A stretch of DNA of 64,000 nucleotides from positions 278,402 to 342,401 of the forward strand of contig CAWUCO010000001.1 in NCBI GenBank assembly GCA_963920705.1. The letters are read 5' to 3'. A model generated the notes under the pieces. The model ran no database searches. It worked only from the letters and a program-made list of their open reading frames with translations, and was not told the DNA's origin. Positions 9,489 to 62,052 of this stretch are shown here, in pieces. Positions within the stretch are counted from its first letter, which is position 1. Every line of letters begins with the position of its first letter. The position numbers and the translations under genes were made by a program. This DNA comes from Odiellus spinosus (lineage: Eukaryota > Arthropoda > Arachnida > Opiliones > Phalangiidae).

Positions 9489-11562
9489 TCAGTCTTGAAA
9501 TCCAATGTCACGTGTTGGCGATTCCTTCGAGAGATAAACTCCCAATTTATTCGCGATAATCTCAGAGAAGAGGGTTAGACAAGCGATTGTGATTCCGGAC
9601 AACCAAATCTGGAACATGATGGACAATTCGTCGATGGTCGTGACAGTGGCTGCGTTCATCTCAGTGCCGGCGTCCTTTGCCAACACTGATCTAATCTTTA
9701 GAAACCTTTGTAAGTCTCTCGGGCCGGATTGAACAGTTTCCACGTATCTAAGCGTCCTAAAAAGGAATTTGCAAAGAATATTAATGCAGTTATATAAAAA
9801 AATAAGTCTCTTTGCAAACTCTTGAGTGGAGGAAGCGAAACCCTCAAAAATGACTGTCTATAGCTCAAATGCTAGAGCCAATTAATTGGGATTAGAGTAC
9901 TCGTCTGCCACTATCGGCCTTATTCTCTCGATTTGCAAATTTTGAGGGAGCCATCTAGTTTCACTCTCGAGAAATCGGAATGTGACGAAGCTTCCGCCTC
10001 ACTCGTAAAGAGTTTGAAAAGGCAAAGTAGCCAATGGGCGCTAGAGAAGACGGTTCCGTGTCTTAATTCATAAATTACGTAACGAGCCATTGATTGAAAA
10101 GTAGGAAATTGCCTTTATACGCTTATTGGCTTTATAATCAAGGTTGTTTTACGGATGTTTCTCTAGCGCGCATGAAAATAAAGTTAAAACATTAATTACA
10201 AATAATTAATTTCCTTCAAAATTATTTTCGGTAATGAAGAATAAAACGTTCTAAACGCAAATTTTCCGAAATATAATTTTTGGCCCGCGTTTTTCATTTT
10301 CTTTCGGATAAGATTATCCGTTGGACTAATTTGACTCTTCAAATATTCGTCGTCAGATAATATGGCGTATTTCCCGGTGCCGTTTGGGAAAGAGTCAAAT
10401 AAATCGGAATTAAATTCTTCGAAGTAGAATGCTTCTTTGTATAGTTGATCCATTATTGGAGAATTTTTACTGAAGTGTTCAATGTAGGTTTTTAACGCAA
10501 GGTCAGTGTGAGAAATTGCCGGTCTCATTCCGGGATATTTCTTGATATCTTCGAGAGTGTTTATTCGAACCGCGTTGGACACCATCATCTTGCTCTTTAA
10601 GTTGCCCGTGTACGCTTTGATCAAGACTGACGTCCCCAGTAACCAACCGCTCAACATCAGTTTTGCCGAAAGTCGCCTCGGGAAAACATCCGCGGCTAAT
10701 TGTTCAAGATTGATTTTTATTCTTTAGATTACTTATTCTATTGTTTTTACTCGCAATGAGGCACTCAACCATCGCTGCGCTATAGAGATACGCCTCATTG
10801 GGGAAAAGTGACTTCTTGAGACGGGTGGGGCTACGCGTCATAATCGATGGAAAGATTTAGAATTCTATATAAAAGTTCTATCACTCTGACCGTCAATTAT
10901 TCGTAAAGCTGACTATCAAAACCACGTATTACCCTCCCTTCCAGAGATGGTGCTAGAATCAACACGCGGTTTGTCGACGTCATAGGTGGGATGGATAGAG
11001 GCGTATTATATCTATAGCGCATGCATCATGCGTTGTAAGATATCCTCACTCTATGGCGAGGTACTCAACGGTTCTGAAGCAGATGAGAAACGTAAAACCA
11101 GGCGTATTCCAAAAACGGGAAACGCTTTCCGATTGACGAACGAAGGAATCTCATTTTGAAAAGCCCGCAGACGAGGGATAATAACAGCACACTGACTATG
11201 AGGGAAACCCAAATTGTGGACTCGATGCCTTCCAACGAAAATTTCTTTTCCGCGTAAATTCCATCACTTACGACAGTTATAATTCTTACCGTTACTGCTC
11301 TCGACGGAGGGGAAGTGTAAAATAATTTAGTATATTGTGTTTCATAACCATACATACACGAATCGCAGAACTGCAATGGAGGAAAAATTAACAACCCGAA
11401 TAACTCTAATTTAGCTATTAGATACTCCGAAACGTACATTTGCCACAACGCAATACGCTGAATATGCAGTTGCAGGAATCGTCATATTTTGTTTCCGCGC
11501 ATAATCATCCACCACGACCTTGACATCATCCCATGGCACGATTGTGAGACTAAAGTGAAACA
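9489..11562 (-). CDS. Ionotropic receptor (IR/iGluR-like), copy A, C-terminal exons
   Basis: This is a ligand-gated cation-channel subunit of the ionotropic glutamate receptor superfamily, divergent IR type, expected in the plasma membrane. Four exons on the minus strand: 11438-11562 (end of S1, VFHFSLTIVPWDDVK), 11070-11370 (pre-M1 loop, M1 at STIWVSLIVSVLLLSLVCGL, pore loop at PFLEYAWFYVSHLLQ), 10200-10695 (M3 at MLSGWLLGTSVLIKAYTGNL, then S2) and 9489-9756 (M4 at IMFQIWLSGITIACLTLFSE, stop). All introns are GT-AG and phases match (0, 1, 2). The acceptor before exon 2 has a strong pyrimidine tract. Exon 1 begins at a CGAG|TG acceptor with an in-frame stop upstream in copy C. The 5' exons (signal peptide and start of S1) are not recognised. 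No frameshift or stop in these exons. Closest relatives are copies B and C. Confidence 0.82.
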
Positions 11563-16310: not shown

Positions 16311-19300
16311 ACATTTTGCGTATCTTAATTTGCCATTTGGAGTTGGGGACTTTGCTTCAATTTAAGGAACGAAAATAATAGTTTTTTAAAGCCAATTTTG
16401 GGGGAAATAAGAATTTTAAATCAACACGCTTTGGTTTAAAACAACCTTTTATGTTTTACAATGTCGATTATTTGAGAAAAAAACATCAGTTGTACTGATT
16501 TCTACTCTGGAATAGAGTCATAGCGTTAAGTTGACCTCTCGAGGTTTATTTAAGCGCCTCTATATTTTCACTTGAAGCAGTCACTTGATATGGGTAGATA
16601 ATTTCATATAATAGTGCTTAATTATTCAAGTAGTTATATATAAATACATTTCATTAAGAACACATTTAAATTTAAGTTATGTAATGCATTAATATATCAT
16701 TTTCAATTGGCATTCAGGGATAATCTAACAAAGTGACACCCTCTCATATTATTTGATAAAAAATATTGCTTGAATAATTTTAAACGCTGTTTATGATCAC
16801 TGGAACATTGCTGTTGAAATGTTTCTTCGAAGTTCTTGTTATTAATGATAATAGCCATCAGCTTGGATATAATAATAGGCTGTAAAGATATTTAATCAGC
16901 TCCACAGCGTAGTGTTCAGGACCAAGCTAATAATGTTACATTGAAAATAAAACTGTTCTTGATCCTATAGCTCGGAATCGGATAATGATTAACTTAGTAT
17001 ATCCATTGATAACTAGGCTTTTTTCAGATATTTTAATCTCCGATAAATTAAGTTAATATAAATCCACAGATTATATAAACAGACGCGTATCAAATGCTGG
17101 ATACGAATTAGACCCGGAGATAAAATTTAAGGCTCGATAAATAAACAAATCGCGTTTATTCGAACGGATAACGCCTAGATAAAAACAGGACGTTTCTCAA
17201 ATCCGTGTAGAATGAAATATAATAATTATAATTTAATCTAAATTGAAAGGAACAGCGACTATTCTAGCTTCGAGATATCAATTTTGGGTTAAAATCAGAG
17301 AGAATAAACTCGAAAGGTTTCAAATTGTTCGTTATCGGTGAATGAATAACTCGTATCAATTTCCTATAACAATTAATGAGTACGAATAGTAAGTTTGCCG
17401 TTACATTCTTGTATACGTTAACTCGAATAAGAAATGGATAATTTTTTCGCGAACAGATAAAATCTGATTGACATTCAATTAACAAAACTTCTACGAATTC
17501 CGAGCTCTCTACATAATTTCCTTTTAAGTCCGTTTTATCTGATTGAGGGTCAAGTTTGAAGGAACTGGGAGATGATGAAATATTGTAAAATCAGTCTTGA
17601 AATCTAATGTCACGTGGTGGCGATTCCATCGAGAGATAAATTCCCAATCGATTAGCTAGAATCTCGAAGAATAGACTGAGACAAGCGATTGTGATTCCGG
17701 ACAACCAAATCTGGAACATGATGGACAGTTCGTCGATGGTCGTGACAGTGGGTGCGTTCATTTCGGTACCCCCGTCCGTTGCTAAGAAGGATTGAATTCT
17801 CATTAATCGACTTAAGTCACTCGGGCCTGATTGAACAGTTTCCACGTGTCTAAGAGTTCTAAAAAGGGAATTTGAAAAGGATATTAAAGCAATAATATCA
17901 TAAATACAGTCTCTTTGCAAACTCTTGAGCGGAGGAAGCGAAACCCGCAAAAAGGACTGCCTAGTTCAAGTACTAGAACCATCTAGCTTAACTCGGAATG
18001 CGACGAAGCTTCCGCCTCACTGGTAAAGAGTTTGAAAAGGCAAAGTAGCCAATGGGCGCTCGAGATGACGAATCCGTGTTACCAATCGGACTGAATCGGA
18101 GGTCATTAACATTATTGAAATGTGAGAAAGAAAAAAATTCTTAATTTTCTCTACGAAAAGAGATACGCCTCTTCGGGGAATAGCGAGTTCGGGAGACGGG
18201 TGCCTTGCGGTGTTTCGACAACAAAGAAGGTATGGAAAGAGTGGTTTTACGGAGGTCTCTCCAACGCGAGTGAAAATAAAGTAAAAACATTTATTACAAA
18301 TAATCAATTTCCTTCAAAATACTTTTCGGTAGCATCAGATTAAACATTAATGAATCATAACGGCTTTTAAAAGCCTTTGAATAAAAGTATTTCCATTGAT
18401 TCCTTTCGTTAGAGACTCTTCGGTAGTTATTATGGCGTATTTCGCAGTGCCGTTCGGGAAAGTGTCAAATAAACCTGAATTGATGTTTTCATAGTAGAAT
18501 ATTTCGTTGTATAGTTGGTCGATTATTGGAGAATTTTTACTTAAGCTTCTAATGTATTTTTTTAACCAAAAGTGAAATTTATAAATTGCGGATCTCATTC
18601 CTGGATGCTTCTTGATATCTTCGATAGTGTTTATGCGATTTGCGTTGGACACCATCAGCTCGCTCTTTAACTTGCCCGTGTAAGCCTTAATCAAGACAGA
18701 CGTCCCTAGTAACCAACCGCTCAACATCAATTTCGCCGAAAGTCGCCTCGGGAAAACATCCGCCGCTAAGAAGTCAAGATTAAATTTGGTTTTATTACTT
18801 TTACTCTCATTGAGGCACTCAACGAGAGATCTTACGTCGCTGAGCTATAGAGAAATGCCTCTTTGGGGAAAAGTGACTTCTAGAGACGAGTGGCGCCATC
18901 CGCCAAAATGGGAAATCGGATGCAAATACTTGTTTTCAAGAGATTTCAAATGAGCCCTTTTTCAAATATGCGCGGAACATGTCATATTTTAGCAATCAAT
19001 TTGCATATTTCTAGAAAACAAATAGGCGCGCGTCGTGCGCGCTCGGGAGCTCCAGTCTCGAGGTGGGGTGGGAAAGGGGGAGGTACTGTCAAAGCCACGT
19101 ATTATCCCTGACTCAGAGATGGCGCTACAATCAACCCGTGGTTTGTCGACGACATCATGGACCAAGTATACTGTAAACGGCTCCACAGCGACAGTGACTA
19201 AATTCCCTGCATTTCGATCTCTCTAGTTTCTCCTACACTGAATTAATATCTTCCCCACGTCTACATACCGCGACTATAGCGCCATCTCCTACGCGTCCTA

Positions 19301-19927: not shown

Positions 19928-21591
19928 ATGGCAGCTAACGCTTTAATGTGTCTGGAGCTTTTACGCCGAAATGATTTAGAAAATAGACGAGCTTTACGTA
20001 GAGAGAGAGAGTTTTACGCGATCCAGGTCAAGCTTTTGAACTGCATGAAAATCAGTTTGTTAAGCTATTTCGCTTGTCGCGACCACTCGTCATTAATCTT
20101 TGCGAGCGATTGGACGCAAGGCTTAGCGGAATACGGATCAGTGCTTTGACTGTGGATTCTAAGGTAAGCCTGGGTTTGTCAAATTACTTTTTATGGTTGA
20201 ACCCCTGAACATTGTTTTACAACTTTTAGATCTTGATTGCCCTGCGTTTTTACGCAACTGGGTCTTACCAAACTGGAGTTGGTCAAGAATTGTTATTAGC
20301 TGTGAGCCAACCAACTGTGAGTAGAGTTGTAAAGAATGTCAGCGAAGCTTTAGTCGATGAACTCCTTGATGAGTGCATAAGATTTCCATGCACTTTGGAA
20401 GAGCAAGCGAGAGTTAAAGTCCCGTAAGTATAAAACCTCAAAGCTAATTAGAGACTGTATTAATAACACCTTTAATCCTAGGTTTTTGGAGAGAAAGAGC
20501 TTTCCTGGTGTTATCGGAGCCCTTGATTGCACGCATGTAGGAATTGTTACCCCTACAAAGAAGGATGAACAATTAGATGCGGTTCATTTCTTTAATCGCA
20601 AGGGTTTTTACTCTATCAATGTTCAGCTTGTAAATTTCACTGTTTAATTTTTATTTGTATTCTCAATGATTTCTCATGACAAATTTGATGCGTAGATTTG
20701 TGATTTGGATCTTCGCATTCTAAATGTAAATGGAAAATTTCCCGGATCAACTCATGATTCTTTTATTTGGAAGTCTTCCATGGCGTGCAGTTTTCTGCAG
20801 TCCAAGCATAGGGAGGATGGGTTTAAAAACTCTTGGCTTCTCGGTAAGTAGTTGATCTAGTTTTTAATAAGTAGTCAGATCATAAGAAGTAAAATAAGGC
20901 AAAACTCTACACCTGGTCTTTAGGTTCAAATAATTGCTATCCCCATATTTATCTTTACCAATTTTATCATGTTCTCTAAATTATGAGAGTCGATTTAATG
21001 AAGGAATATTCCCGCTGTTTATCTGGCCAATTTGATCAATTCGCTATTAAAGGCCATACAAGTTTTCTGTATGGTTTTATTTTTAGATTAAAATGATTTT
21101 ATTTCCTGCTACTTTGAAATGATATTGGTTTTGAAGATATTAAATTCAAATAATTTATTTAAGGTGATGCAGGCTACCCGCTTCAGCCTTGGCTAATGGT
21201 GCCAATATCACAGCCAGCCAATTTAGAGGAAGTCCGCTTCAATTCTCACCACAAAGAAGCCAGGAAGGTAGTTGAAAGGTGCAATGTAGTTTTGAAGGAG
21301 AGGTTTCGGTGCCTGCTAAAGGACCGGATATTGCATTACTCTCCGAGACGAGCTGCCAAAATTATATATGCTTTCTGCATACTCCATAACATCTGCATCA
21401 TAAATAAAATCCCAGAGGATTATGATGAAGGAAATGTTCAGTTGGCACCAGAAGACTTACTCAATAGTGCTAATGATGACAACGAAGACCCAGAAGAACA
21501 ACAACCAATCCTACAACCTCCAGGAGCTGGCACTAATTGGTTCAACGCTGGGCTTCAAGTTCGGAAACGAATTTTGAGGCATTTCCGATAG
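19928..21591 (+). pseudogene. Harbinger DDE transposase (HARBI1-like), five exons, one frameshift
   Basis: Exons: 19928-20163, 20230-20423, 20482-20629, 20696-20843 and 21164-21591. All use GT-AG introns of about 58-320 bp with matching phases. Catalytic triad: D in GALDCTH (exon 3), D in GDAGYPL (start of exon 5), E in RKVVERC (exon 5). FFNRKGFYSINVQL, STHDSF, LKERFRCL and CILHNICI are the usual family motifs. Exon 1 starts MAANALMCLELLRRND. The frame that continues into exon 2 (LHENQFVKLFRLSRP) is one base off the starting frame, and the shift falls in or near the GA run at 20000-20011. This looks like a slippage mutation or a sequence error. From 20163 on everything is open to the TAG at 21591. 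It would cut and join element ends in the nucleus together with the Myb-like partner. Confidence 0.85.
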
Positions 21592-34600: not shown

Positions 34601-36253
34601 AATTGGGATTAGAGTACTCATCTTCCACTATCGGCCTTATTCTCTCGATTTGTAAATTTTGAGGGAGCCATCTAGTTTCACTCGCGAGAAATCGGAATGT
34701 GACGTAGGTTCCGCCTCACACTTGAAGAGTTTGAATAGGCAAAGTAGCCAATGGGCGCTCGAGAAGACGATTCCGTGTCTTAATTCTTAATTTACATAAC
34801 GAGCCATCGATTGAAAAGTAGGAAATTTCCCTTTATACTCTTATTGGCTTTAGTATCAAGGTGGTTTTACGGATGTTTCTCTAACGCGCGTGAAAACAAA
34901 GTTAAAACATTAATTACAAATAATCAACTTCCTGCAACATTCTTTTCGGTAGCAACGGATTAAAAAATAATGAAGTGTAAAAGGTTTTAATCACAAAATT
35001 TCCGAAATATAATTTTTGGCCCGCGTTTTTCGTTTTCATTTGGGTAATAATATTTTTTTTTGTAATTTCACCCATGAAATGTTTTTCGGTGCATAATATG
35101 GCGTATTTCGCAGTGCCGTTTGGGAAAGAGTCAAATAAATCGGAATTGTATTCTTCAAAGTAGAATGTTTCTTCGAATATTTGATCCATTATTGGAGAAT
35201 TTTTTCTTAAGCGTTCAACGTAGGTTTTTAACGCATGATCACGTTTATAAATTGCTGGTCTTATTCCGGGATATTTCTTGATATCTTCGAAGGTGTTAAC
35301 TCGAACTGCGTTGGACACCATCATCTCGCTCTTTAGGTTCCCCGTGTAGGCCTTGATCAAGACGGACGTCCCCAGTAACCAACCACTCAACATCAATTTT
35401 GCCGAAATTCGCCTCGGGAAAACATCCGCGGCTAAGGGTTCAAGAAGGAATTTACTTTTGTTAAATTATTTTTAATAGTTTTATCAGAAGCGGATGACCG
35501 TCCTTTGAAGTCCTTTATACTCAAAACGTGATGTAAATTCCGCTTTCATCCAAACACGGGGAAGAGGGAGAGAGAGAGAGAGAATTTCCAATTTTCCGTA
35601 GAGAGAGGGTTTGAAGTAGCTCCACTCCCCCCCCCCCCATGAACCAGTAAAAGAGGAAAATTTTCCCCATCAGAGGAACATTGAACTAATATAGACTTCA
35701 CAGGATGGTTTAATCGGCGATTTGTTTTACTAATGATCGAGGTACTCAACGGTTCTGAAGCAGATGAGAAACGTAAAACCAAACGTATTCCAAAAAGGGG
35801 AAACGCTTTCCGATTGACGAACGAACGAATCTCATTTTGAAAAGCCCGCAGACGAGGGATAATAACAGCACACTGACTGTTAGCGAAACCCAAGTTGTGG
35901 ACTCGATTCCCTCCAACGAAAATTTCTTTCCCGCGTTTATTCCATCATTTACGACAGTTACCAATTTTGCTGCTCTTGTGTCCGTCGGAGGGGAAACGTA
36001 TATAAATGCGTTAGAACTTTGGGTTGCAACATTATGCGCACACGAATCGCAGAACTGCAATGGACGAAAACTTAACAATCCGAAAGGTGAATGTAAATCA
36101 ATAGAAGAAAACGTACCTTAGTTACAACGCAATACATTGAATACGCTGAATATAATGAAGCTACATCGGTCGGCGCATTGCTTGCCTTGAACAAAGCATC
36201 TATTGCGACCTTGACATCTTCCCATGGCACGATTGTGATACTAAAGTGAACCA
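31640..36253 (-). CDS. Ionotropic receptor (IR/iGluR-like), copy C, C-terminal exons
   Basis: Exons on the minus strand: 36117-36253 (VHFSITIVPWEDVK, end of S1), 35751-36054 (M1 at STTWVSLTVSVLLLSLVCGL, pore loop at PFLEYVWFYVSHLLQ), 34918-35431 (M3 at MLSGWLLGTSVLIKAYTGNL, then S2 ending MLQEVDYL) and 31640-31907 (M4, stop after DIGFQD). Phases match copy A and all exons are open. Exon 1 ends CTAAG|GTACGT. Intron 3 is 3,010 bp, against about 440 bp in A and B, because it holds the foldback element. Intron 2 holds a MITE at 35479-35732. The exon 2 insertion relative to A is one codon. The 5' exons were not found upstream. A functional gene is possible if the large intron is spliced and upstream exons exist. 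Confidence 0.8.
32918..33071. mobile_element. 154-bp Harbinger-type MITE, left arm of foldback
   Basis: Starts TACCCTTTTCAAACGAGGC after TTA and ends GCCTCGTCTGAAGAAGGTA. The same element in best form is at 44034-44187. It lies at the inner edge of the left inverted arm. Confidence 0.75.
33077..33222. mobile_element. Palindromic element at the centre of the foldback transposon
   Basis: CTCATCCTGTATGTTCATCTGG (shown in part) at 33077 and its diverged reverse complement ending AAGGATGAG at about 33222 form arms of roughly 45 bp around a ~55-bp loop. Noncoding. Confidence 0.65.
33397..33550. mobile_element. 154-bp Harbinger-type MITE, right arm of foldback
   Basis: Starts TAGCCTCTTCAGACGAGAAG and ends GCCTCGTTTGAAAAGGGTA, followed by TAA, the complement of the TTA flank on the other side. 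Same family as 32918-33071. Confidence 0.75.
35479..35732. mobile_element. MITE-like insert in IR copy C intron 2
   Basis: Left end TTATCAGAAGCGGATGACCG and right end CAGGATGGTTTAATCGGCGA are imperfect inverted repeats with CTTTGAAGTCC/GACTTCAC inside. The interior has an AG microsatellite (35563-35582) and a C tract near 35627. A related sequence lies at about 43347-43560. Copies A and B lack it at this site. Confidence 0.55.
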
Positions 36254-51130: not shown

Positions 51131-53100
51131 TTTCTGAATCCTTGAGGTTAAAGCAAAATACTTATACTTCGTAACGTGGATGGGAAATAAAGAAATGTTA
51201 ATCAATGTGAATCTTCTACTCTTCCAATACTCTACATTACTTTTCATCTTTTATTTTAGGTAGGGTTAGGTTAGATTATGTTACCTTAACGTCGGGGAGG
51301 TTATATTTTGGTTTCCCAACTTGTTTAACTTTACTAATATATCTCTTCTCGGCCTGTATAAATGAGATTTACAGATTCGGTATTCATAGATGCGCTGATC
51401 CAATGGGTGGTTTACGTTTCCGTGTATAATTGTTGCGAACCCTCCCGCTTGCGCGATGGTGTCGTCTTCGATTGTGTCGGCAATCGTCTCTCGCCTTTAT
51501 TTCGTTGATAGGAGGCCTCTTTCTCACGATCTGTTGGGTAGAGTACTCGAATAAACCGAGGCGATTGAATTTAAATCACATTACTTAGAAATGTGGCTAA
51601 TTTAATTTATGTCTTTTAAAAACATTACACAATGAAAAGTCTAGGGATTGACTTCAATTTGGGCTATTTGGTTTCCGCAAGTGACATCTTTTCTTTCCTA
51701 ATTAAATTAAGTTAAATCCGTCATTGATTTCACTTATGCATTTCATTTCTCAACATTAAAACTAAAACCTTTGATTATTAAGTGGAACTGAAGTGAACTG
51801 ATCCCAATAGCGCCTGTAAATCCCTTAACATTTCACTGAATAACAACAATGCGTAAGGGGAAGTATCTCGACTGGACGCCGGCGAAGGTTTCCACCCTGT
51901 ATAGAGCGGAAAGCGTTAAGACTGCCTTGCGCATCTTGTTTTATTTTAAAGAACTCTCTTCATATTGGAGTTTAATAATTTATTACTTGATTCGTCCAAT
52001 GAATGACTATAAATCCAGTTTTAAAGTCTACAAACATCACTTTTAGGTCCTATACCACATGGTAATAGTGATTTAAAATACACTATGTTCCATCTGGGTG
52101 AAATCAGTGGCGCCATGTATCACATCTATCCGTATGGGTTTTATCCAATCCCCCCGTTTTTGAGCCGAGATATATGGCTTAATATGTACCCCCCCGGATA
52201 TTTATATAGTATAAAATTTGTGAAAAAACTAGATTTTTCCTAATTTTCATAATTTTATTTCCTAATGAAGGAAAGAGATGTTTTTAACGAGACGTATCTC
52301 ATTCGAAAGAGGAGTTTAATTAGAATAATTAAGAATTATTTAAAAAAACTTTGACCGTTTTTGAGCCGAGATATACGGTTTTTCATCCACCCCCTTGATA
52401 AATATACAGTGCATGTGAAAAAGCTAGTTTGAATTTTGAAGCTTTATTTGCGTCATCAATGCGCCATCTATTGTGAAGTGGTTACGTAAAATTTTGTTAA
52501 CTTTAGTTGAAATGCTTTTTTTACAAAGCATTTATAGTTAAAATATTAAAAATAATGAATATTATGATAAATGATTTCAGTTACCCCTAATTTTAACGTT
52601 TTTACCGTAAAATTCGTCGAAAACTAAACCTTGATAGGTAGGTATGAAAATGGTTTTAGGCCATATCTCGAGTCGCGAGTCTGGCAGAATCTGGGATATT
52701 TTTTGGACGGTTGATATGGCCGAATGAACGACCGATTCTGCCAAATTGACACCACAAATTTGACCACCGTCAATCTGCCAGAATACGCCCTAATAAAGCG
52801 TATCGTCGCTGGGTGGATTATTCCACCAGATCCGCGACGGACAATATAGCTATAACCAATTTCAGACTAAGGTAGAAACGAACGGATTTATTCATTTTAA
52901 GCTGAATAACTAGACGGTATATGAAAAAAAAAACTAATTAAAACGAAAAAAATATTAATAATTGCTATACGTGTGTAAATGCGTTTCGTTTTAAATATAA
53001 CTTTTTAACAGATAATCAATTGTGGCGCCCACGTTCATCAAAACGGAATTTTTACAGGGAAATTAATCAATTTAGAAAGTGAACAATAAGGGGTTATGGA
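51130..53100. other. No gene recognised; diverged repeats
   Basis: 51297-51330 matches the tail of the THAP gene region (TTTTGGTTTCCCAACTTGTT). 51340-51660 is a third copy of the CTCTTCTCGGCCT...TATAAA...GAGATTT repeat of the palindrome arms. GTTTTTGAGCCGAGATATA occurs at 52158 and 52359. The 65-aa frame at 51849 lacks support. Confidence 0.5.
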
Positions 53101-53103
53101 TTA

Positions 53104-54770
53104 TATCTCCGCTCACACACATAGGAACTTTCTGAAATTAAAACATATTGTAGAGTATTTAATTATCTATCCAATGGTACTAGCGTCATATCTGGGCCCT
53201 AAGCCGTTTTGGAGTTATTAATAATAATTCACATGGAAAAAAATCTCTACTCAAAAATTCCTACAGAAAATTGTTAGGGGGGTTGGCTTTTTGGTTAATA
53301 TCTCCGCTCACACACATAGGAACCTTCTGAAATTAAAACATATTGTAGAGTATTTAATTATCTATCCAATGGTACTAGCGTCATATCTGGGCCCTAAGCC
53401 GTTTTGGAGTTATTAAATAATTCACATAGAAAAAAATCTCTACTCAAAAATACCTACAGAAAATTGTTAGGGGGTTGGCATTTTGGTTAATATCTCCGCT
53501 CACACATATAGGAACCTTCTGAAATTAAAACGTATTGTAGAGTATTTAATTATCTATCCAATGGTACTAGCGCCATATCTGGGCCCTAAGCCGTTTTGGA
53601 GTTATTAAATAATTCACATAGAAAAAAATCTCTACTCAAAAATTCCTACAGAAAATTGTTAGGGGGGTTGGCTTCTTGGTTAATATCTCCGCTCACACAC
53701 ATAGGAACCTTCTGAAATTAAAACGTATTGTAGAGTATTTAATTATCTATCCAATGGTACTAGCGTCATATCTGGGCCCTAAGCCGTTTTGGAGTTATTA
53801 AATAATTCACATAGAAAAAAATCTCTACTCAAAAATTCCTACAGAAAATTGTTAGGGGGGTTGGCTTTTTGGTAAATATCTCCGCTCACACACATAGGAA
53901 TCTTCTGAAATTAAAACATATTGTAGAGTATTTAATTATCTATCCAATGGTACTAGCGTCATATCTGGGCCCTAAGCCGTTTTGGAGTAATTAATATTGA
54001 TTCACATAGAGAAATATCTCTTCTCAAAAATACCTACAGAAAATTGTTAGGGGGTTGGCATTTTGGTTAATATCTCCGCTCACACACATAGGAACCTTCT
54101 GAAATTAAAACGTATTGTAGAGTATTTAATTATCTATCCAATGGTACTAGCGTCATATCTGGGCCCTAAGCCGTTTTGGAGTTATTAAATAATTCACATA
54201 GAAAAAAATCTCTACTCAAAAATTCCTACAGAAAATTGTTAGGGGGGTTGGCTTTTTGGTTAATATCTCCGCTCACACACATAGGAACCTTCTGAAATTA
54301 AAACGTATTGTAGAGTAATTAATTATCTATCCAATGGTACTAGCGTCATTTCTGGGCCCTAAGCCGTTTTGGAGTTATTAAATAATTCACATAGAAAAAA
54401 ATCTCTACTCAAAAATTCCTACAGAAAATTGTTAGGGGGGTTGGCTTTTTGGTAAATATCTCCGCTCACACACATAGGAATCTTCTGAAATTAAAACATA
54501 TTGTAGAGTATTTAATTATCTATCCACTGGTAATAGTGTCATATCTGGGCCCTAAGCCGTTTTGGAGTTATTAATAATAATTCACATAGAAAAAAATCTC
54601 AACTAAAAAATTCCTACAGAAAATTGTTAGGGGGGTTGGCATTTTGGTTAATATCTCCGCTCACACACATAGGAACCTTCTAAAATTGTAACATATTGTA
54701 GAGTATTTAATTATCTATCCAATGGTGTTAGCGTCATATCTGGGCCCTAAGCCGTTTTTAAGTAATTAAT
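53104..54770. repeat. Satellite array, ~193-bp unit, nine copies
   Basis: TATCTCCGCTCACACACATA starts units at 53104, 53299, 53491, 53684, 53877, 54071, 54264, 54457 and 54652 (spacing 192-195 bp). The units are highly similar and include ATATCTGGGCCCTAAGCCGT and GAAAATTGTTAGGGG. The last copy is truncated near 54765. No open frame persists. The period is close to nucleosome spacing. Confidence 0.95.
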
Positions 54771-55111: not shown

Positions 55112-55770
55112 TCCTTGAGCAAACGAGGCTCACTCCTTGGACAGAGCAAACGAGTTTCACTCCTTGGACAGAGCAAACGAGGCTCACTTCTTGGACAGAG
55201 CAAACGAGGCTCACTTCTTGGACAGAGCAAACGAGGCTCACTTCTTGGACAGAGCAAACGAGGCTCACTTCTTGGACAGAGCAAACGAGGCTCACTTCTT
55301 GGACAGAGCAAACGAGGCTCACTTCTTGGACAGAGCAAACGAGGCTCACTTCTTGGACAGAGCAAACGAGGCTCACTTCTTGGACAGAGCAAACGAGGCT
55401 CACTCCTTGGACAGAGCAAACGAGGCTCACTTCTTGGACAGAGCAAACGAGGCTCACTTCTTGGACAGAGCAAACGAGGCTCACTTCTTGGACAGAGCAA
55501 ACGAGGCTCACTTCTTGGACAGAGCAAACGAGGCTCACTTCTGGGACAGAGCAAACGAGGCTCACTTCTGGGACAGAGCAGAGGCTCACTTCTCGGACAG
55601 AGCAAACGAGGCTCACTTCTCGGACAGAGCAAACGAGGCTCACTTCTGGGACAGAGCAGAGGCTCACTTCTGGGACAGAGCAGAGGCTCACTTCTGGGAC
55701 AGAGCAGAGGCTCACTTCTGGGACAGAGCAGAGGCTCACTTCTGGGACAGAGCAGAGGCTCACTTCTTGG
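55112..55770. repeat. 27-bp minisatellite (24-bp variant at one end), ~25 units
   Basis: The unit GAGGCTCACTTCTTGGACAG plus AGCAAAC is 27 bp. Toward 55580-55770 many units are 24 bp, having lost AAC. Period multiples of three and the absence of stops leave several frames open on both strands (194-275 aa). These are artefacts of the repeat and are not accepted as genes. The unit resembles the last codons of the adjacent Ulp1 frame. Confidence 0.95.
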
Positions 55771-55778
55771 ATTTTCGG

Positions 55779-57213
55779 CTAAATTTCATTCAAGAGCAAA
55801 CAAGGCTCGCTTATTGGATTCAGGTTTTTATAAACTTCATAAAAATTCATTTTTTTTATCTCTTGTTCATAAATATTTCTACAAAGCAGGATGTCCTTTT
55901 TGGCTAATTCATGACCTGGATATCCCAAAGCAATCCATTTAGCGTACAAGCATGTTATAGGCCCACAGTCATAACCATTGTCTTGCTTTGGAAAATTATC
56001 TGTAGATCTTTCTATTTCCCAGCTTGGCTCTCTATCTTTACGATTAAGATTAAAGCCCTCGATAATGTTGACAATCGTTCTCAGATGTTTACCATCGTAC
56101 TTTCCCTTATACTTATGAATTGGTTGTTCTTCAGTGTTAGAGTCCCAAGTAGAATCATAAACAGTTATTTGAAAGATTTCCTTGACACCCGTTAAGTTTC
56201 GCTTAACGGTGAACATAAAAAAGTGACCTTCTCTAGCCATGACAATGAAAGATAATTTGGAACGTTGGATATTTTCATACGCTTTTTCAATCCATCTGGA
56301 ACTAGATTTTAACTCTAAACACCTAAGAACGTGTGAATAGAAATGTATGTCCTGGAATGAAAGTTCAGGACATCGGTTTACTAGCATTTCGAAATAGCCT
56401 CTAATCATGTTATCGTGAAACCATTCTTTATTCTTAATGATATTATATTCTCGTAACCCTAATTGATATCCTCCATCAGGTTTACTTTTTTCAGGGCACA
56501 AATTATCATCAGATGATAAAATATCCACAATTATTTCATCTTCAACTTCGTTAATGCTCACATCTTGAAAAGGGGACTCAGAAACTGGATCTTCACATAA
56601 GAAATCTATTTTTTTCTTCTTTATTTTTCCTAAATCGTCGTTTGACCGGGGTTTGTTCAAGGTTCTCTTTTTGGTTTGTGACGCTTGTGGTGTTTCCGGA
56701 CTTCCTCCAGTTTTCTTTTCGTATCGACGAACAAGGGATGACCCTGGACTTCGTTGATATACGCCTCTAGATCTTTCAGAAGCATCTTTCTTCACTCGAG
56801 GTCTAGTTTTCTTAAATGTATCCTTTATTTCCTTAATTTCATCGTACATCCTTTTGCGTCTGATTTGATTTGGGAGAGGCGTAGATGAGTTTATCAAAGC
56901 ACGCAAATACTGTTGTTTGTTGTACGTTTCAAGCTTTTGTACAACTAAGTCAGCGCGGAGTAAGAACTCTCGGGGAAGGCAAAGCTCTTTCAGAAGTTTG
57001 TGGTATCCTTCAACGTGACCTTGGGTATACACCGGGTGATCAATGTAGTTAACTAAGCCCTTCTTAAATTTATCTCTTGGTCTGTAAGCCTCGGGTATTG
57101 GTTTCGAGTTTTGTTCAAAGTGCCTGGAAAGATCTCCGGAAAGCAACCTGGTCCACAACGGTAAAGTAGGAAAATAATTCTTCTGCATGTATGCCAATAA
57201 ATCTGGTCCAATA
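55779..57213 (-). CDS. Transposon C-terminal segment: DDE glutamate region plus Ulp1/C48 protease
   Basis: Open frame of 472 codons; the first in-frame ATG gives MQKNYFPTLPLWTRLL, but the protein probably continues from the preceding frame. Its first ~100 residues complete the transposase: LPLWTRLLSGDL, then QGHVEGYHKLLKELCL, whose Glu fits the third catalytic residue. A basic, Ser/Lys-rich linker with a bipartite-type nuclear signal follows. From about residue 240 comes a C48/Ulp1 fold: WFHDNMIRGYFEML, HFFMFTVKR (His region), YDSTWD (Asp region) and PKQDNGYDCGP with the catalytic Cys. Ulp1 proteases cleave SUMO-like modifiers. It ends ISEPCLLLNEI just before the minisatellite. The upstream join needs a one-base shift near 57207. 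Confidence 0.85.
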
Positions 57214-59148
57214 GTAGGGATTTAATTCTCGGGATTGATCCAAATTCTCGTGCTTCTCAACTTCAGCCTTTGCTCGATCAATTAGACAATCTGATAAGTT
57301 CTTAAAAAACTTATTACCGGACAATAGATCCTCCTCTTCGTTTTTGGCCAAATTAATGGTTGATGCGTCATTTTCTTCATTTGTTTCTTCTTCGTCTTTT
57401 CTTTTTTGTTCGTCTTCTTTGGTTTCTAACTTCTCGTCAACAGTATTATTAGCAGTTTTTCCCAAGGAATCTGCCAAATTCGACATTTTTCGGACATTTT
57501 CATTGGTGAAGTCATTTTTGTACTTAGACGAGAGAATGACTGCTGCACAAAATATCTTGTCTCTTACTTCTTTAAAATAATGACTATTTATAATGACGCT
57601 CAGCATAAACAATCCGAATCTACGCTCAGAGCTATAGCATTTCCTCATAAGCCTACTACCGTCGTTCATCATATGACAAAGACCGCACTGGATTATTGTC
57701 ATTTCCAAGTCTTTTCCATTGGCATTACCCTCTAGAATCTTTCTACACACGTCCAAGTACTCGGGTAATTCCATGGAGTTGAATTCCTTCAGAGCGGCAC
57801 AAATAAGAACTAAACTTCTGTCACTGGAAATAACTGCGGGCTTTATGATATCTCTATGACCTAGAAGAGTTTTTTGCGCCTTGAGAAATCCATTTAACAT
57901 GCCTTCAACAGTCTCGCGTGTTTGGCTATCACTCAAAAGTTCAACTAGAGGTAAAGGAGTTGAACTATCTTGCCCCTTCTCCGTTATTTTAGCGCATCGC
58001 ATAACCATGACGATATACATGAACTGATGGTTGCCAACCTTTTGCGATACTGTTCCTGTTGCGTCCCATGAAAAATCTGTCCGTTTACAATTTTCACGGA
58101 AAGTTCTAACTGAAGCTTTCGTGTACATCAGTATGGTACATGGATTTAAGCCCACACGTCGCACATAGTCACCGTGGGTTTCAACGAGTTTATTTAAACT
58201 CACGAAAACATCTCTCGCTAACCGTTCCTTTTTCCACATTTCCGCTTTCACCTGCCTCATTGTTCCCTTTCTTAAAGTAGATTCTGTTAAAGCTCCCTTT
58301 GCTATATCAGATGATTTTGTTTTACCATCCAGTTCCAACAGCGCTTCTGAAGGCTTCTTATTCTGATTTTTAACAAATCCTTTTCGCAACTTCTGTCGTG
58401 GCTTACCACGAAGTTGGGGACAAGCTATTGTACCGAATGCGTGGGTTGGGTTGCCGTGATTTTCAATGACGCATGTATAGTCATTAAAAATTTTAATTTC
58501 ACATTTGGCTCTGCATTTGAATTGTTTGGACTTTCGACGTGAACAATAGAGATTACACTGAAACCGAAACCCAGAAGCCTCTGAATCATAGGGAGCGTTG
58601 TGATTTTCGATACACCACATGCAATGAGGATTTTTAGTTTTTAATATATCAAGTAAAGGACTTCTATAATAATCTACGTTTAACCTCTCGTTGGCGTATC
58701 TGTTGATTACCATTTTCGACCAAATGTCCTTGGAGATACTAAACTCAACCACACGAGGTGGTGGCTTGTTTATTTCTCCTTCGGAGCTGGCTTCACGGCC
58801 TAAAATATCCTTGTAAACCTCCGGAGACATTGAACTCGATTCCAAAACGCTGTTGGAAGAATGGTCGGCGAAACCATTACTTGAACTACTACTGTCGTTG
58901 GATATAGACTCGACTGTAACGGGGCTGTAAGGCTGGCATCCAGGATCAGATTGAGATAAATCATCAGACAAACCTTTCATATTGTAATCTGATTGAGAAT
59001 CGGAAATAAAAACACTAGGGTTATCATCTTGATTTTCATCTACATCTATTTGAGACTGACTAGAAGTTTTTGTAGATGCATGACTTGTGGTGCTTTCAGA
59101 ACTGGTGATATCCAAAGGAATTATTCCGTCCACCTCGTAGAATGCCAT
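57115..59148 (-). CDS. DDE transposase with FLYWCH-like zinc finger
   Basis: 677-codon open frame. Residues ~1-130 are acidic and Ser-rich. Around 180-240 is a Cys/His cluster resembling FLYWCH/WRKY-GCM fingers (CNLYCSRR, KCRAKCEI, CVIENHGNPTHAFG). The RNase-H-like core follows: TDFSWDATGTV (first Asp), FMYIVMVMRC, PLPLVELLSD, AVISSDRSLVLICAALKEFN (second Asp) and QCGLCHMMNDG, a C-x2-H. The third acidic residue lies in the next frame downstream. After NPYYW an extra base (57207) breaks the frame; shifted by one, the protein reads on into LLAYMQKNYF. The core looks Mutator-like or KDZ-like, and I cannot choose between them by eye. The listed start is internal-looking, since the frame is open upstream (DEKTTVEGDPDIAHDWV), so it may continue the PHD/USP frame. 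Role: transposition of its own element. Confidence 0.8.
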   Translation of the reverse strand: MAFYEVDGIIPLDITSSESTTSHASTKTSSQSQIDVDENQDDNPSVFISDSQSDYNMKGLSDDLSQSDPGCQPYSPVTVESISNDSSSSSNGFADHSSNSVLESSSMSPEVYKDILGREASSEGEINKPPPRVVEFSISKDIWSKMVINRYANERLNVDYYRSPLLDILKTKNPHCMWCIENHNAPYDSEASGFRFQCNLYCSRRKSKQFKCRAKCEIKIFNDYTCVIENHGNPTHAFGTIACPQLRGKPRQKLRKGFVKNQNKKPSEALLELDGKTKSSDIAKGALTESTLRKGTMRQVKAEMWKKERLARDVFVSLNKLVETHGDYVRRVGLNPCTILMYTKASVRTFRENCKRTDFSWDATGTVSQKVGNHQFMYIVMVMRCAKITEKGQDSSTPLPLVELLSDSQTRETVEGMLNGFLKAQKTLLGHRDIIKPAVISSDRSLVLICAALKEFNSMELPEYLDVCRKILEGNANGKDLEMTIIQCGLCHMMNDGSRLMRKCYSSERRFGLFMLSVIINSHYFKEVRDKIFCAAVILSSKYKNDFTNENVRKMSNLADSLGKTANNTVDEKLETKEDEQKRKDEEETNEENDASTINLAKNEEEDLLSGNKFFKNLSDCLIDRAKAEVEKHENLDQSRELNPYYWTRFIGIHAEELFSYFTVVDQVAFRRSFQAL

Positions 59149-61580
59149 GACCCAGTCATGAGCAATATCTGGATCACCCTCAACAGTTGTTTTCTCATCA
59201 TTGTAACATCCCCAAAAATGTGAATAGAGCTTTGAATAGGCAATGTAATGACTGTTGCTCTTTGATGTGCGTTATCTACATCATCAATTCGCCTGCTCTC
59301 CTGCGTACATGGTTCTCCACAATCATTTGTTGCAGGACAGATGCGATTACGTTTTGGTTCTAATTCCGCAGCATACTGTGAAATGTTGTCTTTATCATTT
59401 CCTAAAATGAAATATTTAACAACAGAGTCGTTGGTTTCTGCAAAATGTGGAGTTTTACAAGAATTGCAAAGGTACATTATGACATCCTGCAAGGTTTGAA
59501 AGCTAGCTCCAATAAACGGCAATACCAAATTTAAGAATTCCAAAGGGTCGTGCATCCCAGCTAGTTCCATATTCCCTTTAGACAATATTTGAACGTGTCG
59601 AAGAAGCACTTCTACATCAGCTCGTGAAACAGATTTTTCGGTTTTCTCCTTAAGTTTTGACACAAAGCTACATAACTGTTGATCAGTTATTTTGGCATTA
59701 AAAAACGCGCGGGTCTCTAATAAAGACTGTAATAAAGAAGATAACCAACAATTCTGCAAAACATTTTGAATACCTCTACGCAAGGAGGCTTTCCAACACG
59801 GGGGACATTTGAGGTTATCATCATTTTCCACTTGTTTAGCTGTTCTTGGACTATCACGCAATCCAACACACGTAAAATGGAGCCATTGATTGCAGCCGGT
59901 GCACATAAAATACGCGGTATTCTTGTTGTTGGGTTTACCACAGAAACAGAAAGTTTCTCGATTCTTTTTTTCTAAAGTTGGATAGACCATATCTTGATCT
60001 ACTTTCTTTGAAGCGATTCGGTTGGTTCGTCTTAAAGGAAAAACTCCCAAATTGCGGGAAGCCGTAACCTGCTCAGGTAAAACGGCCACACCAGATGGAG
60101 TCTTAACAGGCGTAGGTGGAACATTAACGGAACGAGAACGAACCTCTACGGGCGAAGCCCCGGAGCTACAAATAACTTTGACAGGTGGAGCTGTAGAACA
60201 AGTATGAATCTTGTCCTTCAATTTGCGTTTTGGTTTTACTAATGAAAATCTCTTATTTTTGTCTTCTTTTGTGAAGATTTTGGAAACATGAGGATCTTCA
60301 GGGTGTGAAGACGCGCCCATGACCAAAGTGTTAGATGGCGCAGTAATGGCAGAAAGATCAGACGCCGCAGCAATGGTTAATTGATCTGATAACGTATCGA
60401 TGACCAAAGGGTCGTATGATCGATCGATGGCCAAGGGATTGGATGAACCATCGATGACGAAAGGGTCGGATGATCCATCGATGACCAAAGGGTCGGATGA
60501 TCCATCGATGACCAAAGGGTCGGATGGTCCATCGATGACCAAAGGATCGAATGACCCATCGATGAGCAAAGGATCGAATGACCCATCGATGACCAAAGGG
60601 TCGGATGACCCATCGATGACCAAAGGGTCGGATGACCCATCGATGACCAAAGGGTCGGATGACCCATCGATGACCAAAGGGTCGGATGACCCATCGATGA
60701 ACAAAAGGTCGGATAACGCATCGATGAACAAAAGGTCGGATAACGCATCAATGTCAAAAGGGTCCGACGACGCAGCAATGACCAAAGGATCGGACGACGC
60801 AGCGATATCTGAAGGGTCTAACGGCACAGCTATTGGATCTAATGACGCAGCGATGACCGAAAGGACGGACGGTGCAGAAGTGGCCAATGGATCTGATGAC
60901 GCAGCGATGACCGAAAGGACGGACGGTGCAGAAGTGGCCAATGGATCTGATGACGCAGCGATGACCGAAAGGACGGACGGTGCAGAAGTGGCCAATGGAT
61001 CTGATGACGCAGCGATGACCGAAAGGACGGACGTTGCAGAAGTGGCCAATGGATCTGATGACGCAGCGATGACTAAAGGTTCGGCTGGAAGGTCTGACGA
61101 CACAGCTATTGGATCTGATGACGCAGCGGTGACTAGAAGTTCACACGACGCAGCGATACCGGGAAGGTCTGACGACACAGCTATTGGATCTGATGACGCA
61201 GCGATGGCTGAAAAATCTGACGACACAGCTATTGGATCTGATGACGCCGGTAATGGATATGACGACGCAGCGATGACTAAAGGATCGGACGACGCGGTAT
61301 TGGCTGACAAGTTGGTATGATGTTTTTGAATATCAATAATAATCTCGTGGAAATAGGTATTAAAGCCTTTGTAGTTCTTCGTGTACTTTTTATGGAAGTA
61401 CTTAGACGCATACTTAAAACTTCTTTTACTGATCCCTACTTCGTAAGCTACTCGATTATAAATCTCTGACCATTCACCATCAAATTCATGAATTCTTTTA
61501 TAGTCGAAAACAATGACCCGTAACATAGCCTGGAGAAGATCGTAATGAAGAACCTTAGAGTGCTCCAAAGTAAACACCAT
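59121..61580 (-). CDS. PHD finger plus USP-like protease domain, with 9-aa repeat array
   Basis: The ATG at 61580 (CAAGATGG context) is preferred; the frame is open 18 codons further but only to a TTG. Residues ~1-90 are a small helical domain of unknown type (EWSEIYNRVAYEVGISKRSF). A long array of 9-residue repeats (SSDPLVIDG and variants) is encoded by 27-bp DNA repeats at about 60400-61310. After a basic Pro-rich linker comes a C4HC3 PHD finger (FCFCGKPN, CTGCNQW, LHFTCVGL, LKCPPCW). It is followed by a USP-like fold starting GIQNVLQNCWLSSLLQSL, with a plausible catalytic Cys, HDPLEFLNLVLPF and CNSCKTP. The frame ends after SSIHIFGDV, but a one-base slip at a T5 run (59214-59218) reads on as FWGCYNDEKTTVEGD into the transposase frame. 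USP-type enzymes remove ubiquitin or SUMO. PHD fingers read histone tails. Confidence 0.78.
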   Translation of the reverse strand: MVFTLEHSKVLHYDLLQAMLRVIVFDYKRIHEFDGEWSEIYNRVAYEVGISKRSFKYASKYFHKKYTKNYKGFNTYFHEIIIDIQKHHTNLSANTASSDPLVIAASSYPLPASSDPIAVSSDFSAIAASSDPIAVSSDLPGIAASCELLVTAASSDPIAVSSDLPAEPLVIAASSDPLATSATSVLSVIAASSDPLATSAPSVLSVIAASSDPLATSAPSVLSVIAASSDPLATSAPSVLSVIAASLDPIAVPLDPSDIAASSDPLVIAASSDPFDIDALSDLLFIDALSDLLFIDGSSDPLVIDGSSDPLVIDGSSDPLVIDGSSDPLVIDGSFDPLLIDGSFDPLVIDGPSDPLVIDGSSDPLVIDGSSDPFVIDGSSNPLAIDRSYDPLVIDTLSDQLTIAAASDLSAITAPSNTLVMGASSHPEDPHVSKIFTKEDKNKRFSLVKPKRKLKDKIHTCSTAPPVKVICSSGASPVEVRSRSVNVPPTPVKTPSGVAVLPEQVTASRNLGVFPLRRTNRIASKKVDQDMVYPTLEKKNRETFCFCGKPNNKNTAYFMCTGCNQWLHFTCVGLRDSPRTAKQVENDDNLKCPPCWKASLRRGIQNVLQNCWLSSLLQSLLETRAFFNAKITDQQLCSFVSKLKEKTEKSVSRADVEVLLRHVQILSKGNMELAGMHDPLEFLNLVLPFIGASFQTLQDVIMYLCNSCKTPHFAETNDSVVKYFILGNDKDNISQYAAELEPKRNRICPATNDCGEPCTQESRRIDDVDNAHQRATVITLPIQSSIHIFGDVTMMRKQLLRVIQILLMTGSWHSTRWTE
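60400..61310. repeat. In-frame coding minisatellite, 27-bp and 54-bp units
   Basis: At 60400-60720 the unit is 27 bp (ATGACCAAAGGGTCGGATGA plus CCCATCG, plus-strand sense). At 60850-61070 four near-identical 54-bp units (two 27s) contain GACGGTGCAGAAGTGGCCAA. On the minus strand they encode 9-aa repeats in the PHD/USP frame. The plus-strand 306-aa and minus-strand 133-aa frames across it are shadows. Confidence 0.9.
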
Positions 61581-61639
61581 CTTGAATAATCTATATATAA
61601 AGCAGTAAAACATATAAAAAAAGATTACTGGCAAGACTA

Positions 61640-62052
61640 AACAGTTTGCGCAGTAAAGCTTTAACAGCTTACTGTGATAAGTTGCTTTTAACGCGCAAAA
61701 GCATTGCGATAATGAAAATAAGCTTTTACTACAGTAAAATGAAGGGTGATTTAACTGAAGGGTGATTTAAGCGTAAAACGAGTTTTGCCAGTCTCAGAAA
61801 GGGTATGGAAATTATATCCAAGCTACAATAACCCAACACTCCACCTATTAAGTTATATAGAAATTCAAATCATATCTCAGTTGATCTGCCAGCCATTTAA
61901 GGGAGTAGAAACTAATTCAAGGAAAACCTAAACTAATTTAAGGAGCCTAAACTAATTCAAGGAAGCCTGAACTAATTCAAGGAAAACCTAAACTAATTTA
62001 AGGAGCCTGAACTAATTCAAGGGTGCGTAAACTAATTCAAGGGAGCATAAAC
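61640..62052. repeat. Upstream flank: hairpins and ~20-bp tandem repeat
   Basis: 61640-61740 holds overlapping short inverted repeats (GTAAAGCTTTAACAGC, AATAAGCTTTTACTACAG). 61905-62052 is a degenerate ~20-bp tandem repeat (AACTAATTCAAGG alternating with AACTAATTTAAGG). This may be the 5' end of the transposon. No gene. Confidence 0.55.

Follow-up and report, generated by a model that had tools for sequence, protein, structure and literature searches.

A damaged transposon gene at the locus

The stretch of Odiellus spinosus DNA that we analyzed (64,000 nucleotides, referred to here as the window; all positions count from its first letter) carries a damaged copy of a transposon gene on its minus strand, within positions 55779-61766. 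The features of this copy and of its surroundings are the following.

52763-53102, plus strand: left end of the element (3' side of the gene), beginning ACCACCGTCAATCTGCCAGAATACGCCC..., a start shared by three copies
53103-54770, just inside the left end: array of 8.6 copies of a 193-bp satellite (TRF)
55117-55771, directly after the stop codon: 27-bp minisatellite (TRF)
55779-57221, minus strand: ORF3, 480 aa; end of the transposase with the candidate catalytic Glu, spacer, Ulp1 domain
55848-56474, minus strand: Ulp1 (Peptidase_C48) domain; Pfam E 4e-7, above the cut-off
57000-58110, minus strand: DDE-like core, assigned by motif only; frame change near 57207
57011-57009, minus strand: codon of the candidate catalytic Glu in TQGHVEGYH, in ORF3
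57115-59271, minus strand: ORF2, 718 aa; end of the USP domain, acidic/Ser linker, Cys-rich segment, most of the transposase
58065-58063, minus strand: first D of the DDE-like core, in FSWDATG
58432-58629, minus strand: Cys/His-rich segment (PHCMWC...CNLYC...C...C...H), FLYWCH-like by eye only
59121-61766, minus strand: ORF1, 881 codons; N-terminal domain, repeat linker, PHD finger, first part of the USP domain
59134-59774, minus strand: USP (UCH, C19) domain, damaged; Cys box NCWLSS and His box SHYIAY flank the missing stretch
59262/59263, minus strand: site of a 136-bp deletion inside the USP domain that breaks both domain and frame (blastn against the intact copy L009)
59796-59948, minus strand: PHD finger; Pfam E 2.8e-4, under the Pfam cut-off
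60300-61310, minus strand: coding minisatellite with 27/54-bp units (..IDGSSDPLV../..SVIAASSDPLAT..; TRF)
61580, minus strand: likely ATG start of ORF1 (an earlier ATG lies at 61613)

The three long minus-strand frames noted in the preliminary description are indeed open, over 881 (59124-61766), 718 (57118-59271), and 480 amino acids (55782-57221); the longest frame with the tandem-repeat part excluded (718 codons) compares with a maximum of 183 codons in 500 controls made by simple shuffling of non-overlapping base pairs. The overlaps of 28 and 83 bases given for these frames hold only for particular starts, the former if counted from the ATG at 59148, while the latter would fit a TTG at 57197; from stop to stop, they amount to 151 and 107 bases. 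The first break had been ascribed to a frame shift at the T5 run 59214-59218. However, the codon of the USP histidine (SHYIAY, 59250-59248) lies upstream of this run and already in ORF2, and the frame is instead broken by the 136-bp deletion; the stretch lost from the window is retained in L009, L011, and the subfamily-2 copies. The second break, near 57207, does correspond to a one-base length difference from the intact copy. Programmed frameshifting or introns at both junctions were considered and rejected, since the frame of the intact copy runs on across both and the first junction stems from a deletion. Sister copies should hence be compared before frame breaks in one copy are called frameshifts. 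The full protein is now beyond the reach of the window copy, and the element extends further than the 55779-61634 initially assigned to it, from the left end at 52763 along homology to the intact copy up to the window edge at 64000.

An intact copy encodes a single protein

The same genome contains, on contig C18, a 97%-identical copy (L009) whose single frame stays open over 2,471 codons, corresponding to 2,409 aa when counted from the likely ATG. Its protein consists, in this order, of an N-terminal domain, the minisatellite-coded linker, the PHD finger, a full-length USP domain, the Cys/His-rich segment, the DDE-like core, and Ulp1. The continuity of this frame over PHD, USP, DDE, and Ulp1 supports the earlier proposal of a single protein, and the search for intact copies without the two shifts, made in this genome only, thus yielded one. 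Intact relatives encoding separate proteins with introns at the junctions were not seen, the sole intact relative found being the single frame on C18. The size proposed earlier (~1,950 aa) was too small, mainly because the repeat-coded linker is longer in the intact protein (875 vs 425 residues); for one unit of the coding minisatellite, 24 occurrences were counted in the C18 copy, against three in the window copy. The N-terminal ~90 aa of the C18 copy are 30% identical to subfamily 2 (E 1e-11), and the last C-terminal residues of its frame are unlike those of the window copy.

Domain assignments

The PHD finger of the window copy matches the DIDO1 and BPTF PHD structures (phmmer), and a profile built from both subfamilies matches PHD structures at E 3.2e-8. 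By Pfam, the finger passes the cut-off in L036 (E 2.8e-6), but neither in L016 nor in the C18 copy. At three of the four positions that we take to form the aromatic cage of BPTF, the finger of the element carries aromatic residues. The UCH profile is matched in the window copy over positions 2-43 only (E 0.024, under the Pfam cut-off), over 2-239 of 254 in the C18 copy (E 1.8e-8), and at E 1e-12 in L016, both of the latter above the cut-off. Significant USP and PHD matches, on which the preliminary description hinged, are therefore present in relatives of the window copy. These relatives possess the full-length UCH profile together with the Cys and His boxes of the USP/C19 class, which is broken in the window. 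Similarity of the USP domain to solved structures is weak (best E 0.0086 by profile and 0.014 by phmmer). An assignment to the USPL1-type peptidases was rejected: Peptidase_C98, presumably the Pfam family of USPL1, is absent from the Pfam matches up to E 5, and UCH is named instead.

The Ulp1 domain belongs to the C48 class by its Pfam matches (in the C18 copy E 3.1e-6, above the cut-off) and by its candidate His-Asp-Gln-Cys residues, which are all present (GHFFMF, VYDST, FPKQDNGYDCG); in L016, Glu replaces the Gln. The window domain matches the SENP1 and SENP2 structures at E ~1e-5 (phmmer).

The DDE-like core comprises, besides the first D and the candidate Glu, the D in ISSDRSL and a C-x3-H in QCGLCHMM (D 1668, D 1749, C 1794, H 1798, and E 2019 of the C18 protein); most of the aligned rows, in either subfamily, have these motifs. 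MULE transposases have a D-D-E motif with a C/H motif (C-x2-H) between the second D and the E; the candidate C-x3-H of the element lies between its putative second D and E, and its spacing departs from this pattern. No Pfam transposase family, MULE or other, was matched by pieces of the core up to E 10 or by 13 relatives up to E 5, with the HMMER filters discarding most matches above E 0.1. ORF2 of the window copy as a whole matched no Pfam family. The Cys/His-rich segment had no Pfam match either, and is mostly conserved between the subfamilies.

Termini and satellites

The homology of the window copy and the copies at C18:7.84M and C9:907k begins at 52762/52763, outside of which the flanks differ. 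An inverted array of the 193-bp unit (92-97% identical) is also present at C9:349920-350994, a stretch that may or may not belong to the window element, and the 27-bp minisatellite recurs in L009, L011, L017, and L018. On the right, the window element continues past the window edge, where a masked stretch follows (5,000 bases given as N), and it ends on the far side of this stretch. Both ends could be delimited in a subfamily-2 copy, C18:4782007-4797439, in which inverted ends of 322 bp (98.8% identical) enclose satellite units on both sides, in inverted orientation, with about 1.4 units on the left and six on the right. Similarity of this copy to the one at C18:4.88M continues 304 bp beyond its inferred left end, and its right end meets another end head to head. 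No 9-bp target-site duplication was found at this one copy with both ends.

Subfamilies, selection, and genomic distribution

A second subfamily, represented by L016, is ~40% identical and has the domain order unchanged, and the candidate catalytic residues of USP, DDE, and Ulp1 are retained in most covering rows of both subfamilies. Between L009 and L016, non-synonymous divergence lies far below synonymous divergence in four domains (p = 1e-11 for PHD, 2e-19 for USP, 2e-37 for DDE, and 5e-12 for Ulp1), in a comparison in which dS is saturated. Between L009 and L011, omega is 0.17 for USP, 0.40 for DDE, and 0.32 for Ulp1. Over all domains, omega is 0.39 for the window copy, 0.35 for L011, 0.28 for L012, 0.53 for L017, 0.55 for L024, and 0.73 for L025; among these six, only the window copy, L011, and L012 cover the USP domain, with USP omegas of 0.20, 0.17, and 0.18. 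Linker rows and the PHD finger in two L013 pairs (dN > 1, misaligned) were excluded from the selection argument. Among copies of subfamily 2, the USP domain evolves almost neutrally (seven pairs, omega 0.51-0.89, no p value < 0.05), as is expected of dead copies, but of a passenger too. The USP row of L016 vs L035 (omega 0.84) probably includes misaligned stretches. The subfamily-2 rows for DDE (0.35-0.77) and Ulp1 (0.10-0.67) were left out of the argument.

A transposase match lies at most 6 kb away from 16 of the 28 PHD-USP loci and 13 of the 15 Ulp1 loci, and both PHD-USP and Ulp1 are near seven of the 29 transposase loci, in one of which (C10) Ulp1 is on the opposite strand; the transposase search behind these counts scored 62 of 104 candidates. 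With an alignment of three rows as the query, no relatives were found in viral contigs or in contigs of prokaryote genomes.

Comparison with known transposons

The PHD finger and the satellite-bearing inverted ends most likely point to Rehavkus, a Mutator-related group that either branches early within the Mutator-like elements or lies outside them. Rehavkus elements have a single ORF with a PHD finger and a minisatellite ahead of the 3' terminus (PMC6446971), and the inverted termini of a 9.5-kb Tribolium element contain a satellite with a 164-bp unit (PMC10218199). The Odiellus element likewise has a PHD finger in its transposase protein and repeats on the 3' side and in inverted termini (satellites of 193 and 199 bp), and the inverted repeats of its subfamily-2 copy (322 bp, with similarity running past the inferred left end) fall into the 26-400 bp range of Rehavkus. 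This likeness concerns the PHD finger and the termini. The copy with both ends spans 15.4 kb, in contrast to the 9.5 kb given for the Tribolium element.

Ubiquitin and SUMO proteases recur in unrelated transposons, and their role there has been posed as a question (PMC2836005). The same paper lists Ulp1 in Mutator elements of hydra, lancelet, and plants, Ginger1 elements with Ulp1 or OTU, Ginger1-9_HM with Ulp1 and PHD, and the Trichomonas protein XP_001314237.1, a transposase_11 with a Peptidase C19 (PMC2836005). Like Ginger1, the Odiellus element has a C-terminal Ulp1 in a DNA-transposon protein; unlike the Ulp1-bearing Mutator and Ginger1 elements as described there, it has a USP domain. 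Ginger identity was rejected, since an integrase-like core would be expected and no such Pfam match was obtained. The Trichomonas protein shares the fusion of a USP-class peptidase to a transposase; it differs in its transposase class, and neither PHD nor Ulp1 is named for it in the passage on this protein. Each of Ulp1, PHD, and C19 peptidase is already known with transposases; our literature search found no paper with all three and a transposase in one protein.

Proposed function and alternative explanations

We consider it probable (about 0.65), judging from sequence, that the window holds a defective copy of a large DNA transposon whose intact form encodes one protein with functional roles for PHD, USP, DDE, and Ulp1. 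The element most likely moves by cut and paste, and its place among the DDE transposons would be on the Rehavkus/Mutator side. The DDE core would cut the element at its satellite-bearing ends, while the PHD finger might tether the protein to histone H3 tails. USP and Ulp1 could act on ubiquitin and SUMO attached to the transposase itself or to chromatin and repair proteins at the cut sites; removal of these modifiers may shield the complex from degradation and ease repair. Two findings weaken this explanation, namely the similarity that continues past the inferred left end and the weak match of the USP domain to solved structures. More tentatively, both kinds of protease, the PHD finger, and the transposase, joined in one protein in two diverged subfamilies, might mark a lineage whose own chromatin reader, deubiquitinase, and deSUMOylase have long been under selection and whose transposition depends on local ubiquitin/SUMO editing; if so, these marks would be edited at the target or donor site during transposition. 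With one intact frame at hand, each domain can be tested separately.

It is quite conceivable that the element is an ordinary Rehavkus whose domain set is familiar to Repbase curators and merely undescribed in open papers, as a PHD finger and a minisatellite are already given for this group; yet the passages on Rehavkus that we consulted name neither USP nor Ulp1. The term polyprotein in the preliminary description suggests a chain that USP and Ulp1 would cut into PHD-USP, transposase, and Ulp1 products, and two proteases in one long protein with long linkers between its domains would fit such self-processing. Both families cut after Gly-Gly. However, only two Gly-Gly pairs occur in the C18 protein outside its repeats (1,534 aa), and the pair preceding the Ulp1 domain is replaced by Gly-Asn in all three subfamily-2 rows covering the site, so that self-cleavage is unsupported and appears unlikely.

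Mutator-like elements tend to pick up host gene fragments (PMC6446971), and PHD-USP could be such a fragment, carried along by chance in some copies (transduplication) and without use to the element. The 12 of 28 PHD-USP loci without a transposase match nearby and the near-neutral USP of subfamily 2 would agree with this. Yet PHD-USP sits at the same place and in the same order in the ~40%-identical subfamily, with low pN/pS between the two, and stop-free, unsplit matches over most of the PHD-USP query occur in the genome only in the C18 copy and L016; because the architecture is common to both subfamilies, a captured fragment is largely refuted and very unlikely. It is likewise very unlikely that the C18 frame is a domesticated host gene, although no other frame with all domains intact was found and USP omega between L009 and L011 is low: its left end and satellite array are common to the window and C9:907k copies while the flanks differ, and over 1,488 codons only 30 substitutions, 18 of them non-synonymous and 12 synonymous, separate it from the window copy. 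Because these differences are so few, the C18 copy looks recent rather than long domesticated.

A Single Reading Frame in an Intact Copy Encodes All Four Domains

The coding region of the window copy is distributed over three long reading frames on the minus strand, as the preliminary description had reported:

59124-61766, minus strand: PHD finger and first part of the USP domain
57118-59271, minus strand: end of the USP domain; bulk of the transposase-like core
55782-57221, minus strand: end of the transposase-like core and Ulp1 domain

In this copy, Pfam matched Peptidase_C48 with an E-value of 4e-7, while PHD (E 2.8e-4) and UCH (E 0.024) stayed under the cut-off. We searched the genome containing the window (443 Mb, 286 contigs) with the middle frame and, with 62 of 104 candidates scored, obtained at least 66 matches that merged into at least 31 places (at least 29 when strand was disregarded); one of these matches, on contig C18, sits inside an unbroken frame of 2,471 codons (2,409 counted from the ATG equivalent to window position 61580). 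The proposal that the PHD, USP-like, transposase and Ulp1 domains belong to one protein is upheld by this uninterrupted relative. A Pfam search covering 2,300 amino acids of the C18 frame placed two families above the cut-off, Peptidase_C48 (E 3.1e-6) and UCH (E 1.8e-8, spanning positions 2-239 of the 254 in the profile), and PHD (E 8.4e-4) below it. Against solved structures, the USP part matched weakly (E 0.014 by phmmer, 0.0086 by profile), whereas the PHD finger (3.2e-8 by profile) and the Ulp1 domain (about 5e-6) performed better.

Relative to the C18 copy (L009), 136 bp of USP-domain sequence are missing from the window copy at 59262/59263, and a one-base difference in length lies near 57207, where the second frameshift had been predicted. 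The first shift had been assigned to a T5 run; this placing is wrong, because the USP histidine (59250-59248) already lies in the second frame. Since the missing USP stretch is present in copies L011 and L012 and in copies of the diverged subfamily 2, and since L009, L011, L017 and L018 stay in frame across the second site, the two breaks appear to be confined to the window copy. Copy L025 carries a separate break of its own at the second site (about 1.1 kb). A coding minisatellite (window 60300-61310) differs strongly in copy number from that of the C18 copy, with the frame kept.

Conservation and Genomic Linkage of the Domains

PHD-USP sequences gave 43 matches at 28 loci of this genome (57 of 57 candidates scored) and Ulp1 gave 18 at 15 loci (21 of 21 scored). 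With 62 of the 104 transposase candidates scored, a transposase match lay within 6 kb of 16 of the 28 PHD-USP loci and 13 of the 15 Ulp1 loci, and both PHD-USP and Ulp1 occurred near 7 of 29 transposase loci, including one on C10 with Ulp1 on the opposite strand. At C1:2624649-2626231, PHD-USP and Ulp1 lie close together with no match between them among the same 62 of 104 transposase candidates; the locus may be the remnant of a decayed element or a derivative that carries the proteases alone. Contig C158 holds mirror-image element copies (432-454k and 494-509k) whose frame breaks, in L011 and L012, agree wherever both cover them; this suggests a large inverted duplication.

Subfamily-2 copies, whose proteins are about 40% identical to those of subfamily 1, are found on C18 (4.79M, 4.89M), C9 (1.35M), C10, C13 and C2. 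One of them, L016, is itself split into frames and is colinear with the intact protein over the PHD-Ulp1 span (q109-679 and q689-1528). Its 591-aa frame matches UCH at E 1e-12 and PHD at E 2e-4; in part of another copy, L036, PHD rises above the Pfam cut-off (E 2.8e-6). About 90 N-terminal amino acids are also related between the subfamilies (30%, E 1e-11). Most alignment rows covering them keep the USP Cys and His boxes, the core D-D-E residues and the Ulp1 His, Asp and Cys. Exceptions are the second D (N in the two subfamily-2 rows L013 and L014), the first D (E in L011, at a frame break), the expected Ulp1 Gln (E in L016), the Ulp1 His and Asp (absent from L036, beside a frame break) and the C/H motif (R and Y in L018).

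In the comparison of L009 with L016, PHD (p 1e-11), USP (2e-19), DDE (2e-37) and Ulp1 (5e-12) all show non-synonymous divergence far below synonymous divergence, with synonymous sites saturated, and omega between L009 and L011 is 0.17 for USP, 0.40 for DDE and 0.32 for Ulp1. Other pairs speak against this with higher values: USP omega within subfamily 2 was 0.51-0.89 in seven pairs (p <0.05 in none), and further subfamily-1 pairs gave 0.53-0.73 for all domains together; these copies are decaying. In our reading, all four domains were maintained over a long period, after which most copies died.

Element Ends and Likeness to Known Transposons

Three copies (window, C18 and C9:907k) have a common left end, at window 52763, beyond which their flanks differ. 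Inside this end lie two arrays:

53103-54770: 193-bp satellite array
55117-55771: 27-bp array

The satellite recurs, inverted and 92-97% identical, at C9:349920-350994, which may be the other end of the same element; 5,000 masked bases past the window edge and other elements intervene. A subfamily-2 copy at C18:4782007-4797439 provides the clearest two-ended case: its inverted ends measure 322 bp and share 98.8% identity, with satellite units on the inner side of each (about 1.4 left, 6 right). However, its likeness to the C18:4.88M copy extends 304 bp beyond the left end, and no target-site duplication was seen there. Just 12 bp outside 52763, a subfamily-2 element has its end in inverted orientation (window 52155-52750; 92% identity in the satellite unit and 91% in the terminus). 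Comparable head-to-head ends occur at the right terminus of the C18:4.78M copy and to the left of the one at C18:7.84M, perhaps reflecting insertion beside existing ends.

By anatomy, the element fits Rehavkus, a Mutator-related group described from arthropods and annelids with 9-bp target-site duplications, terminal inverted repeats of 26-400 bp, one ORF, a PHD finger and a minisatellite ahead of the 3' repeat (PMC6446971); a 9.5-kb Tribolium Rehavkus carries a 164-bp satellite within its inverted termini (PMC10218199). PMC2836005 describes Mutator elements with Ulp1, the occurrence of Ulp1, OTU and PHD domains among Ginger1 elements, and a C19 peptidase together with transposase_11 in Trichomonas. 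The combination of PHD, USP, transposase and Ulp1 is absent from the portions consulted of five Rehavkus accounts (PMC6446971, PMC13359780, PMC10218199, PMC1634758, PMC4298943). Nor did it appear among the papers listed by our literature searches, which is weak evidence of absence as Repbase Reports and most subscription literature lay outside their coverage.

Possible Working of the Protein

Domain order, the single frame and the conservation of candidate catalytic residues are established here at the sequence level. The PHD finger may bind histone H3; of the four alignment positions that we take to be the aromatic cage of BPTF, three hold F, Y and W and one holds N. The USP and Ulp1 domains would then have the transposase, or proteins at the cut, as their substrates. 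It appears unlikely that the protein cleaves itself, because its 1,534-aa non-repeat part contains only two Gly-Gly pairs, one of which is not kept in subfamily 2.

Other Features of the Window

10199-10723, 18350-18844 and 34917-35465, minus strand: three ionotropic-receptor-like gene pieces (below the Pfam cut-off for Lig_chan, with E from 8e-5 to 3e-4)
21163-21588, plus strand: transposase piece (Pfam DDE_Tnp_4, E 4.8e-16), presumably of PIF/Harbinger type
1863-2324, minus strand: THAP domain in a 154-aa open frame (E 1.1e-7)
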